Assembly: GCA_003246855.1 (NCBI GenBank)
Contig: QKCP01000058.1
Span: 1 to 63,916 of the forward strand
Reading direction: 5' to 3'
Length of the DNA: 63,916 bases
From: Ilyobacter polytropus
Lineage (GTDB): Bacteria; Fusobacteriota; Fusobacteriia; Fusobacteriales; Fusobacteriaceae
The number at the start of each line of letters is the position of its first letter. Within the stretch, counting starts at the first letter, position 1. The translations under genes and the position numbers were made by a program. Shown piece by piece: positions 25,232-58,529 of the stretch. The notes under the pieces were generated by a model. That model worked only from the letters and a program-made list of their open reading frames with translations. It was not told the DNA's origin and did not search any database.

Positions 25232-26209
25232 ATGAAAAGAAGCTTATCGGGAATTCAACCGAGCGGTATTTTACATCTGGGCAACTATTTCGGTGCTATA
25301 AAACAGTTCATAGAAACTCAACATGAATTTGAAGGATTCTATTTTATTGCCGACTATCATTCCCTTACATCTTCACCAAACCCTGAAGATCTGAAAAAAA
25401 ATTCATATAATATAGTTTTGGACTACCTTGCCCTGGGTCTAGACCCGGAAAAGTCAACCATATTTTTGCAGTCGGACGTCCCTGAGCACACGGAGTTAGC
25501 TTGGATTTTAATGAACGTAACCCCTGTGGCTCTCCTTGAAAGGGCTCATTCCTACAAGGACAAAGTGGCTAAGGGTATTGCTCCTAACCAAGGACTTTTT
25601 ACCTATCCCGTGTTAATGGCCGCAGACATCCTTATGTACGATGCCGATGTGGTGCCTGTCGGAAAAGATCAAAAACAGCACCTCGAGATGACTAGAGATA
25701 TCGCTATAAAATTCAACCAGACCTACGGAAAAGAGTTTTTTAAGCTGCCTGATCCGGTAATAAGGGAGTCACTTGCGGTTGTACCTGGTACAGACGGACA
25801 AAAGATGAGCAAGTCATATAACAATACGATTGAGATGTTCGCTTCCAAGAAAATCTTGAAAAAACAGGTCATGAGCGTAGTCACCGACTCCACCCCACTT
25901 GAGGAACCAAAGGATCCGAACAACAATATAATGCAACTGTACAAACTCTTCGCTTCTGCTGAAAAGGCGGAAGAAATGAAGCAAAACTTCCTGAACGGCG
26001 GATACGGATACGGCCACGCAAAAAAAGAATTGCTGGAGGTCATCCTAGAATACTTCGCCGAAGCCAGAGCAAAAAGAGAAGAGCTGGAAAAACATCCTGA
26101 GTACGTTGAAAAAATATTAAAGCAAGGCGCTGAAAAGGCTAGGTCGATCGCCATTGAAAAAATGAAGGAGATCAAAAAAGCTGTTGGACTTTTGGGTAAT
26201 ATCTATTAA
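25232..26209 (+). CDS. trpS: tryptophanyl-tRNA synthetase
   Basis: 325 residues. SGIQPSGILHLGNYFGAI contains the HIGH-equivalent motif, QSDVPEHTELAWIL and GKDQKQHLEMTRDIA are typical of TrpRS, and GQKMSKSYNN is the KMSKS loop. The ATG at 25232 follows GGAGGGG; the ATG 33 bases upstream overlaps the promoter. Charges tRNA-Trp. It has its own promoter and terminator and no leader-peptide attenuator of its own. Confidence 0.95.
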   Translation: MKRSLSGIQPSGILHLGNYFGAIKQFIETQHEFEGFYFIADYHSLTSSPNPEDLKKNSYNIVLDYLALGLDPEKSTIFLQSDVPEHTELAWILMNVTPVALLERAHSYKDKVAKGIAPNQGLFTYPVLMAADILMYDADVVPVGKDQKQHLEMTRDIAIKFNQTYGKEFFKLPDPVIRESLAVVPGTDGQKMSKSYNNTIEMFASKKILKKQVMSVVTDSTPLEEPKDPNNNIMQLYKLFASAEKAEEMKQNFLNGGYGYGHAKKELLEVILEYFAEARAKREELEKHPEYVEKILKQGAEKARSIAIEKMKEIKKAVGLLGNIY

Positions 26210-55966: not shown

Positions 55967-56908
55967 CTATTTATTAACTATAACTGCTCTTTCCATAAGC
56001 TCTTCTGGTATAAGTATATCCAACTTCTCCGCCACACTTTTATTTATAAGCAAACTGGTTTCTTTTGCCAGCTCCATTCCCATATCGCTTATTTTTTCAC
56101 CTTTTAGGTATCTTACGACCATTTCCCCAGTCTGAACCCCTATTTTATATTGGTCTATTCCTTCTGTTGCAAGAGCACCCTGAGTGACATAGTCTTCTAC
56201 TCCTCCTATTATTGGCACCCCTAACTTATTAGCCCTTTGAACTACAACAGGGTATGTGGAAGCAATCAGATTATCTATATGGGTGTAAAGAACATCTACA
56301 TCGTCTAGTATGGAATCCAACGCCGTCGGTACCTCATTTACATTTGTTACTGAAACCACCTTTAGCTCAAGCCACATGTCCCCTGCAATTTCCATCGCTT
56401 TTTTTACCTGTATCTCAGAGTTCTGCTCACTGGAATTGTATACCATCCCTACTATTTCTGCTTTAGGCATCAATTTTTTCAGCAATTCAAACTGCTGCTT
56501 TATAGGTGTCATGTCGCTTATACCGGCTATGTTGTCACCTTCTAGACCTGCAGCCGCAGGGTCGGTTACAGCTGAATATATTATAGGTATTTTGTTTGTA
56601 GCATTCAAGGCAGCTTGTGCACTTGGAGTTGTTATAGCTATAATTAAGTCTTTTTTACCGTCCACAAAAGAGTTGGCTATAATCTGTGCATTAGACATCT
56701 CTCCCTGGGCATTTTGAAAGTCTATTTCTATGTTTTCTCCATCTACATACCCATTTGACTCCAAAGTGTCCAAAATCCCCTTTCTTATCTGGTCTAAAGA
56801 CGGATGCTGAACTATTTGGGTAAGTCCTATATTTACCTTTTCCTCTTTTTTACTACCGCAGGCTGCTAAAAATGCCACAGTTAATAGCAGCAAAATTATC
56901 TTTTTCAT
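55967..56908 (-). CDS. TrpX-like ABC substrate-binding lipoprotein
   Basis: 313 residues. Lipobox FLAACGS. The body is an ABC sugar-type binding fold of the COG2984 group: LTQIVQHPSLDQIRKGILD, TPSAQAALNATNKIPIIYSA, PIKQQFELLKKLMPKAEIV, YTHIDNLIASTYPVVVQRAN and GVQTGEMVVRYLKGE. The group includes TrpX of tryptophan transporters. The upstream attenuator with a Trp-Trp leader peptide supports tryptophan as ligand. No permease or ATPase gene is adjacent. GGGAGGG before the ATG. Confidence 0.8.
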   Translation of the reverse strand: MKKIILLLLTVAFLAACGSKKEEKVNIGLTQIVQHPSLDQIRKGILDTLESNGYVDGENIEIDFQNAQGEMSNAQIIANSFVDGKKDLIIAITTPSAQAALNATNKIPIIYSAVTDPAAAGLEGDNIAGISDMTPIKQQFELLKKLMPKAEIVGMVYNSSEQNSEIQVKKAMEIAGDMWLELKVVSVTNVNEVPTALDSILDDVDVLYTHIDNLIASTYPVVVQRANKLGVPIIGGVEDYVTQGALATEGIDQYKIGVQTGEMVVRYLKGEKISDMGMELAKETSLLINKSVAEKLDILIPEELMERAVIVNK

Positions 56909-56979: not shown

Positions 56980-57012
56980 AAAGAAAAGGCCTGTATTTCT
57001 TAATCAGGCCTT
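56980..57012 (-). terminator. attenuator terminator (segments 3:4) of the TrpX-like gene
   Basis: Minus-strand stem AAGGCCTG/CAGGCCTT (57005-57012 with 56986-56993), 11-base loop, then TTTTCTTT. Its 5' arm continues as CCTGATT, which can instead pair with AATCAGG at the end of the leader peptide gene, so the terminator can be switched off. Confidence 0.75.
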
Positions 57013-57030
57013 CAAGTATCTTAAATATAA

Positions 57031-57059
57031 AGCCTGTCCAAAATTATTTTGAACAGGCT
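57031..57059 (-). repeat. extra hairpin in the attenuator leader
   Basis: Stem AGCCTGT/ACAGGCT with a C-A mismatch, then CAAAA/TTTTG and a three-base loop. It lies between the leader peptide and the terminator. The GCCTG/CAGGC bases are shared with the terminator, so cross-pairing is possible. Confidence 0.55.
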
Positions 57060-57091
57060 GTGAGATTATTTTTTATAATTTATAGTCCGGG

Positions 57092-57172
57092 TCAAGCAGA
57101 CAAACCTGATTCGCATATAGAATTTTTTTCAGTATTGAGTCTATCTTGCCACCATGCGAATACAAATGCCAT
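57092..57172 (-). CDS. tryptophan leader peptide
   Basis: 26 residues beginning MAFVFAWWQDRLNTEKNSIC, with two Trp codons in tandem at positions 7 and 8. AAAGGGG lies 11 bases before the ATG. The bases coding just before the Trp codons (ATTCGCAT) pair with ATGCGAAT near the end of the ORF, and the following AATCAGG can pair with the terminator arm. The plan matches trpL of enteric bacteria. Confidence 0.72.
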   Translation of the reverse strand: MAFVFAWWQDRLNTEKNSICESGLSA

Positions 57173-57217
57173 CTTTTTGCTATCCCCTTTCTAAAAATCA
57201 AATTAAATTTTCAAAAT

Positions 57218-57246
57218 ATTTTACCATAACTAGAAATAAATTACAA
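57218..57246 (-). promoter_or_regulatory. promoter of the trp leader and TrpX-like gene
   Basis: Minus-strand TTGTAA, 17 bases, TAAAAT with TGG before the -10. The transcript would start about 40 bases before the leader peptide and 300 before the TrpX-like gene. Confidence 0.7.
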
Positions 57247-57277: not shown

Positions 57278-58480
57278 CTATTCGTTTACTGTCTGTACGT
57301 GCGCTGCTACTCTTATGGTTAAGTTGGCTATGATAATACCTAATAAACATATCACTATTAAGGGATAAAAAATATATTGGTAAGATCCAAACAGCTCCTT
57401 TACACCCCCGGAGATTATCCCCTGTAGAAATGCACCGGCACCGTACGCAGTAAATAGCACACCGTAGTTCTCAGCATAATTTTTAGGCCCAAAAATATTA
57501 GAAGTTGAAGCTGGGGCTATAGAAAGCCACCCACCTAAGTTCATCCATATAACTGAAAACGAGATTACGAATACAGCTATGTTGTCAGGGAAAATTATGC
57601 TTAAAAGCGCTCCAGATATTATAGAGGTATAAGACAGCATTATAGCTTTTTTGGTACCAAACTTATCTGTAAACGCCCCGAATATAGGCCTCCCTATCCC
57701 GTTGAATATTGCAAAGAATGAAGTGAAAAATGCAGCTTTGGTCGGGCTTATACCCATTACTTCTTGGGCATATGTACTAGACACACCTATTATCATAAGG
57801 CCTGACAAGGTTCCTATCGTATAAGTTGTCCATAGTCCGTAGAATTCCTTTGTTTTAAGCATCTCCCTCATAGAAAGCCCCCACTCGCTATCTCCCATAG
57901 AATCCGAGCTTAGTTCCGGAAACTTAAGTGTTAGCGAAAGTAGACAGAGAATAATCAAGAATACAAACCCCAAAATTTTAAATGTTTTGAACACTCCAAA
58001 CGCCATGATAAGTTTATTTGAGATAGGAGCTGTTATAAAAGGGGATAAACCAAAACCTAAAAGTGTCAGCCCAACTGCAAGCCCCTTTTTTTCAGGATAC
58101 CATTTTGCAGCAACTGCAAGGGGAACCCCGTATATAATCCCTACACCTATGCCTCCTAACACTCCATATGTAAACGCTAAAACCTGCATGCTTGGTGCAA
58201 AGCTTGATACTATATAGGCTGCTGCTACGAGCAGAGACCCAATGATAGATATAAATTTTGGATTAAATCTTGCTATCAGCCTCCCTGCAAAAGGCATGGA
58301 TAGTGCATAGGATAACAAGAAAAACATGTACGGCATATTTGCAGTTGTAGAACTCACCTCAACCCCATTCTTTAAAAATTCTGCGATCAATGGTTTTTGA
58401 AATACACTCCAAGAGTATATGCTCCCCAAACACAAAAACATTAATACACCGCTTACAATATACAGATATCTTTTCCTCAT
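57278..58480 (-). CDS. OFA-family major facilitator transporter
   Basis: 400 residues, twelve membrane segments. The N-terminus MRKRYLYIVSGVLMFLCLGS followed by IYSWSVF is typical of the oxalate/formate antiporter family; GIGVGIIYGVPLAVAAKWYP and GRPIFGAFTDKFGTKK are the usual loops. Substrate likely a small carboxylate, but not shown. ATG at 58480 chosen because AGGAG lies six bases before. Confidence 0.85.
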   Translation of the reverse strand: MRKRYLYIVSGVLMFLCLGSIYSWSVFQKPLIAEFLKNGVEVSSTTANMPYMFFLLSYALSMPFAGRLIARFNPKFISIIGSLLVAAAYIVSSFAPSMQVLAFTYGVLGGIGVGIIYGVPLAVAAKWYPEKKGLAVGLTLLGFGLSPFITAPISNKLIMAFGVFKTFKILGFVFLIILCLLSLTLKFPELSSDSMGDSEWGLSMREMLKTKEFYGLWTTYTIGTLSGLMIIGVSSTYAQEVMGISPTKAAFFTSFFAIFNGIGRPIFGAFTDKFGTKKAIMLSYTSIISGALLSIIFPDNIAVFVISFSVIWMNLGGWLSIAPASTSNIFGPKNYAENYGVLFTAYGAGAFLQGIISGGVKELFGSYQYIFYPLIVICLLGIIIANLTIRVAAHVQTVNE

Positions 58481-58529
58481 AACCATCTCCTTTCTTTTTT
58501 TAACATTTATGTTTATTTTACGAACACTT

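Follow-up and report, generated by a model that had tools for sequence, protein, structure and literature searches.

A probable tryptophan-sensing leader-peptide attenuator upstream of a TrpX-like binding protein gene in Ilyobacter polytropus, with counterparts across Fusobacteriota

Ribosome-mediated trp attenuation is a textbook mechanism, described chiefly in Proteobacteria and Actinobacteria. In the trpL leader of E. coli and other enterobacteria (RF00513), a short peptide with tandem Trp codons is combined with alternative 1:2, 2:3 and 3:4 pairings and an intrinsic terminator, and starvation for charged tRNA-Trp opens the operon. Leader peptide systems had, to the knowledge of Naville and Gautheret, not been shown beyond these two phyla before their case in bacilli, where histidine leader peptides lie upstream of hisS paralogues (Naville and Gautheret, 2010; PMC2965389). 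In Streptococcus, the trpXYZ transporter genes are instead under the control of a Trp T-box, which binds uncharged tRNA directly, without a leader peptide, and attenuates transcription according to tRNA-Trp charging (PMC9382623).

Here we describe a leader in a 63,916-nt contig of Ilyobacter polytropus, a member of the Fusobacteriaceae (QKCP01000058.1, the window hereafter), that resembles trpL in its short tandem-Trp peptide, its three alternative pairings and its intrinsic termination, and that should likewise open its gene on starvation for charged tRNA-Trp. However, it differs from trpL in that a single antiterminator segment is common to two tandem terminators, the ORF includes region 2, the target is a lone binding protein gene and the phylum is a different one. 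It also has no sequence match to known leaders: a search of Rfam with the leader gave nothing at gathering and no RF00513 (Trp_leader) match, a weak match to RF04312 (29 of 59 bits) being rejected, and seven leader peptides searched against Pfam and NCBIfam, including the leader-peptide families, had no match. With the streptococcal system it shares the gene family and, in all probability, transcription attenuation on tRNA-Trp charging, although it has no T-box. With the histidine leaders of bacilli it shares leader-peptide attenuation outside Proteobacteria and Actinobacteria, whereas those sense histidine, belong to Firmicutes and are unrelated in sequence. The features, all on the minus strand, are the following:

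57218-57246, minus strand: sigma-70-like promoter (-35 TTGTAA at 57246-57241, 17-nt spacer, -10 TAAAAT at 57223-57218), read from the sequence
57184-57190, minus strand: SD-like AAAGGGG 5' of the leader ORF, read from the sequence
57092-57172, minus strand: leader peptide ORF of 26 aa, predicted translation MAFVFAWWQDRLNTEKNSICESGLSA, stop TGA at 57094-57092
57149-57154, minus strand: tandem Trp codons (codons 7-8), read from the sequence and in frame in every compared Trp leader
57154-57161, minus strand: region 1, ATTCGCAT, overlapping the first Trp codon; its partner is region 2
57101-57116, minus strand: region 2, made of ATGCGAAT (57116-57109, partner of region 1) overlapping AATCAGGTTTG (57111-57101, antiterminator half)
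57031-57059, minus strand: terminator T1, AGCCTGTTCAAAATAATTTTGGACAGGCT, arms AGCCTGTTC...GGACAGGCT, tail TTATATTTA, -16.4 kcal/mol, imperfect U-tract
56985-57013, minus strand: terminator T2, GAAGGCCTGATTAAGAAATACAGGCCTTT, tail TCTTTATTA, -13.5 kcal/mol
55967-56908, minus strand: TrpX-like substrate-binding lipoprotein of 313 aa (PF04392, 3e-80), pocket Val/Gln, predicted tryptophan binder

The elements by which a ribosome-mediated trp attenuator is recognized are thus present: a short ORF carrying tandem Trp codons separates the promoter from the gene, region 1 lies at those codons, 1:2 and 2:3 pairings are alternatives, and a 3:4 intrinsic terminator has the antiterminator partner in its 5' arm. 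A preliminary description had proposed such a design, with a promoter, a 26-residue ORF, an 8-bp pairing around the Trp codons, an antiterminator and a terminator in this order, and we recovered all of them. Its 7-bp antiterminator is found between AATCAGG (57111-57105) and CCTGATT (57008-57002), the latter within the 5' arm of T2. It had recognized T2 correctly but taken it for the only terminator, overlooking T1 upstream. Region 2 can in fact partner the 5' arms of both terminators: AATCAGGTTT (57111-57102) pairs with that of T2 through CCTGATT and G-U neighbours over ~10 bp, and also with that of T1 with one bulge, a single antiterminator segment in the window thereby being able to pair with both tandem terminators. 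The leader stop codon lies ~10 nt 3' of AATCAGG, and starts 15 nt after the start of TCAGG. As had been proposed, this position would suit the masking of region 2 by a ribosome finishing translation, as expected of a member of this class.

We searched for counterparts among relatives. A protein search over 61 genomes of the order returned many PF04392 genes, and in Ilyobacter polytropus (G025) and other genera short ORFs with WW or WWW are located ~150-330 nt upstream of such genes. Most of these leaders have in common a peptide start [RK][FL]TWW(W), the RNA motif ATCAGGTTTTG towards the end of the ORF, and CCTG/CAGG arms in their terminators. Relatives display clear TTGACA/TATAAT-like promoters at the equivalent position, and AAAAAAGGGGAT or GGAGG as a comparable SD. 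A covariance model, R1, built from eight leaders of other genomes with the window excluded, recovers the window leader as its sole match in the window (E 0.007). R1 has matches in 27 of the 98 genomes of the phylum, a count that includes weak matches, some of them false. Six weak ones that we inspected (L131, L135, L136, L138-L140) lie inside ABC ATPase or other genes and were rejected as coding false positives.

In the tabulated Trp leaders of Fusobacteriaceae, the Trp codons are in frame and begin at codon 6 or 7. In contrast, the antiterminator motif TCAGGTTTTG occurs in two reading frames across relatives, giving QVL or SGF/SGL, and it is therefore kept as RNA while the Trp codons stay in frame. 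The 1:2 stem is paired in 90% of the cells of the eight-leader alignment, against 21-44% when slid, with two-sided changes present. Moreover, tandem terminators were found in 12 of the 14 Fusobacteriaceae Trp leaders compared, the first one at the T1 position.

The leader region of the window folds better than 200 of 200 shuffles (z -3.7). The individual pairings, each taken alone, have shuffle p values of 0.07-0.20; since they are unremarkable in the single sequence, the case rests on the relatives. We therefore used a swap test, which compares native with permuted partners. In the 14 Trp leaders compared, regions 1 and 2 pair better in their native combination than after permutation (p=0.0005), and so do region 2 and T1 (p=0.02), while region 2 with T2 is not significant (p=0.12). 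Together with the compensatory changes in the 1:2 stem, this supplies the covariation across relatives that the preliminary description had called for. It had also named as refutation a lack of conservation of the Trp codons or pairings in related genomes; we found Trp codons, pairings and terminators all conserved, which upholds its reading as a trp-type attenuator. From these comparisons, we conclude that the window leader is neither a chance nor an isolated case, the strong evidence being the R1 match and the recurrence across the phylum.

Alternatively, the leader ORF might have decayed or arisen by chance, T1 and T2 merely terminating the transcript of the upstream gene and the trpX promoter lying elsewhere. 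An MFS transporter gene does lie immediately upstream on the same strand (57278-58486), and the window leader, with just 23 bits against R1, is the most diverged of the set, the modest p values of its pairings in the single sequence pointing the same way. However, a promoter separates the leader from the MFS gene, the distance from the leader ORF to the hairpins 3' of it is the one observed in relatives, and the gene stays linked to its leader in the orthologous loci of G018 and G006. Furthermore, the 1:2 helix is perfect and shows a compensatory G-C to A-U exchange with respect to the genome's own trpE leader (ATTCGCAT/ATGCGAAT versus ATTCACAT/ATGTGAAT). We consequently regard this alternative as very unlikely.

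Still less probable is that trpX is governed, as in Streptococcus (PMC9382623), by a T-box or by some other riboswitch that binds tRNA or a ligand, the small ORF being incidental. Fusobacteriota do have T-boxes, with 0-3 matches per genome. However, no T-box (RF00230) or other Rfam match appears in the leader even at E up to 5, the sole T-box match of the genome sits on another contig, and in-frame Trp codons are kept in SD-preceded peptides 14-31 residues long, for which a T-box has no need. That sole T-box-like match (G000:C54:11789-11980) scores 77.6 bits, whereas gathering would require 93.

TnaC, which operates through Rho sites, depends on a single Trp and on a Pro as the last residue ahead of the stop. 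A TnaC-like sensing of free tryptophan, in which the nascent peptide arrests the ribosome at high tryptophan and induces the gene as for tryptophanase, would also account for Trp codons in the leader, yet is scarcely credible here: the window leader has tandem Trp codons, no Pro in its peptide, and intrinsic terminators with a matched antiterminator, and its targets (trpE, trpS, uptake) would be expected to rise on starvation rather than on excess.

We therefore hold with high confidence that the window carries a transcription attenuator of the ribosome-mediated kind, which senses charged tRNA-Trp, controls a tryptophan-binding protein and forms one site of a Trp regulon in the phylum. Stalling, termination and dependence on tryptophan are here taken over from the established trp model, and applied to the conserved anatomy they would operate as follows. 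Transcription would start near 57211, and a ribosome would then translate the leader. With ample tryptophan, it would pass the Trp codons and sit at the stop, covering region 2, so that T1 and T2 fold and transcription stops; with no ribosome, the 1:2 hairpin would lead to the same outcome. When Trp-tRNA is scarce, a ribosome stalled at the Trp codons would cover region 1 and leave region 2 available for pairing, first with the 5' arm of T1 and next with that of T2, as each emerges, giving read-through into trpX.

Folding of the two states, a check proposed at the outset, showed the expected partners at the expected polymerase positions. With the RNA free from 57136, as in the stalled state, region 2 pairs with the 5' arm of T1 when the polymerase has only just completed it, and with that of T2 once this in turn is made; with the RNA free from 57080, as for a ribosome at the stop, T1 and T2 form and nothing else. 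In the full-length starved-state RNA the terminators are still thermodynamically favoured, and the switch must therefore be kinetic, timing being decisive as in known cases. One region 2 might oppose two terminators through successive pairing, or by a relay in which the freed 3' arm of T1 takes the 5' arm of T2. This last pairing (CAGGCTTT:AAGGCCTG) is strong in the window (-12.1 kcal/mol), and would turn both terminators off in one move; since it is not better than with swapped partners (p=0.21), we offer the relay only as a suggestion.

The gene behind the leader was proposed to be an orphan TrpX-like binding protein, which fits what we find. Its neighbours are the upstream MFS transporter and a downstream phosphoglucomutase/phosphomannomutase-like gene, the latter named from sequence only, making it a lone binding protein. 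The protein falls short of the TrpX equivalog cut-off (NCBIfam NF041285), with 305.7 against 390 bits; its structure matches are 6hni (3e-72), 3lkv and 3lft. It belongs to the same family as CD0873, VC_1101 and SP1069, which bind Tyr, Phe and Trp, respectively, and in the solved PF04392 proteins this preference is set by two positions: Glu263/Tyr279 in CD0873, Ala/Tyr in VC_1101 and Ala/Gln in SP1069 (PMC6816091). The Val/Gln pocket of the window protein, non-acidic at CD0873 Glu263 and with Gln at Tyr279, differs from those of the Tyr and Phe binders and is nearest to that of the Trp binder.

The same correspondence between leader and pocket is observed in relatives. Downstream of Trp leaders, the second pocket position is a non-aromatic Q/E/D in 20 of 21 binding proteins (window included), the single exception following the weak leader of G035; downstream of Tyr leaders, an acid is combined with Phe/Tyr in four of four. 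For Trp-leader proteins against all others the Fisher p is 2e-11, not corrected for kinship. The idea that the leader gives away the ligand of its protein gains support from this, and the pocket residues independently favour tryptophan as the predicted ligand of the window lipoprotein.

The genome of the window encodes two further PF04392 proteins, one of Tyr type (G000:C95) and one with Ile/Tyr (G000:C63). The former is accompanied by the only permease found in the genome, with an ATPase-like ORF following it, and as this is the sole permease found, the lone window protein may share it. The 5' region of the Tyr-type operon (L036 1-345) holds a terminator and a long leader in which GATAAATCC and GGTTTATC could form an antiterminator; neither an evident Tyr leader peptide nor any match in Rfam was found there.

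The preliminary description considered trp attenuation of a transporter lipoprotein unusual for a fusobacterium. On the contrary, the window leader is one of many such leaders in the phylum, its ORF design being homologous to that of 19 trpX leaders as well as of trpE and trpS leaders. Among inspected matches, trpX or trpX-trpX-permease-ATPase is preceded by a Trp leader in 19 genomes from seven genera of Fusobacteriaceae, trpE-led operons in eight genomes, including that of the window (G000:C97), and trpS in four genomes of one genus (g12). By contrast with this genus, a Trp leader was sought and not found before the genome's own trpS (window 25232-26194, plus strand). In Leptotrichiaceae, leaders of 14-16 residues with LWWW, WLWW, WTWW or WIWW precede trpE, trpX plus trpE, or trpB. 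The identities of TrpE, TrpS and TrpB among representatives were confirmed by HMM searches; the TrpE-like proteins of Leptotrichiaceae are below the TrpE equivalog cut-off, and in G087 the TrpE-like gene is followed by trpG-, trpD- and trpC-like ORFs. Because equivalent leaders precede trpE, trpS and trpB elsewhere, the attenuator on the transporter gene is best read as belonging to a Trp regulon in Fusobacteriota made up of the trpE operon, trpX/trpXYZ, trpS and trpB. A further Trp-type leader, MIRFLYWWQKNSKLNNQYESGFAIL, with tandem terminators, lies before an incomplete aldolase-like gene at a contig end in G015:C1 (L129).

We also found leaders with at least six tandem Tyr codons, located before tyrS in the genome of the window (G000:C4), before PF04392 genes in four genomes and before AGCS carriers in four genomes. 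Over six Tyr leaders, native 1:2 partners again pair better than swapped ones (p=0.0015). The tyrS leader (L157, L187) encodes 15 residues, MIEKLRRNYYYYYYL, with six tandem Tyr codons, is followed by a terminator, and is likely a tyrosine attenuator. Those before PF04392 genes (L062 2190-2280; L065 and L066, minus strand; L144) precede proteins with Tyr-type pockets (E/F or D/Y). In the three poly-Tyr leaders of g11, each of two tandem terminators has a matching antiterminator segment. The second terminator's 5' arm, CTGCTTATT, is the partner of AATAAGCAG, which is located close to the end of the ORF or beyond it, and region 1 (GCTTATT; CTTATT in one) can likewise pair with AATAAGCAG. The leaders of AGCS-family sodium:amino acid carriers (e.g. 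MKFKFNYYYYYYLLNLGHRV; L166, L181, L182, L183) suggest tyrosine as the substrate of these carriers. Some runs of TAY codons were at first taken for Thr/Ile leaders, but they fall within genes and were discarded.

The attenuation mechanism itself is classic, and the priority of describing it for Fusobacteriota is uncertain: in the open-licence literature, the part that we searched, we found neither Trp nor Tyr leader peptides reported for this phylum, and the tyrosine version is apparently undescribed there. The full trp attenuation design, with covariation across Fusobacteriota, would represent a regulon in a further phylum, one in which T-boxes are few. A broader proposal, whose chances we consider evenly balanced, is that Fusobacteriota use phylum-wide leader-peptide attenuators for aromatic amino acids. 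The Trp regulon and, distinct from it, a poly-Tyr regulon comprising tyrS, Tyr-type binding proteins and AGCS carriers would then largely fill the role that T-boxes have in Firmicutes. A six-segment chain, (1:2)(3:4)(5:6) against (2:3)(4:5), would allow one stalled ribosome to free both terminators, and the leader codons would report the ligand of each transporter. Such a match between leader codons and downstream pocket residues may offer a ligand assignment from sequence alone for many PF04392 paralogues.
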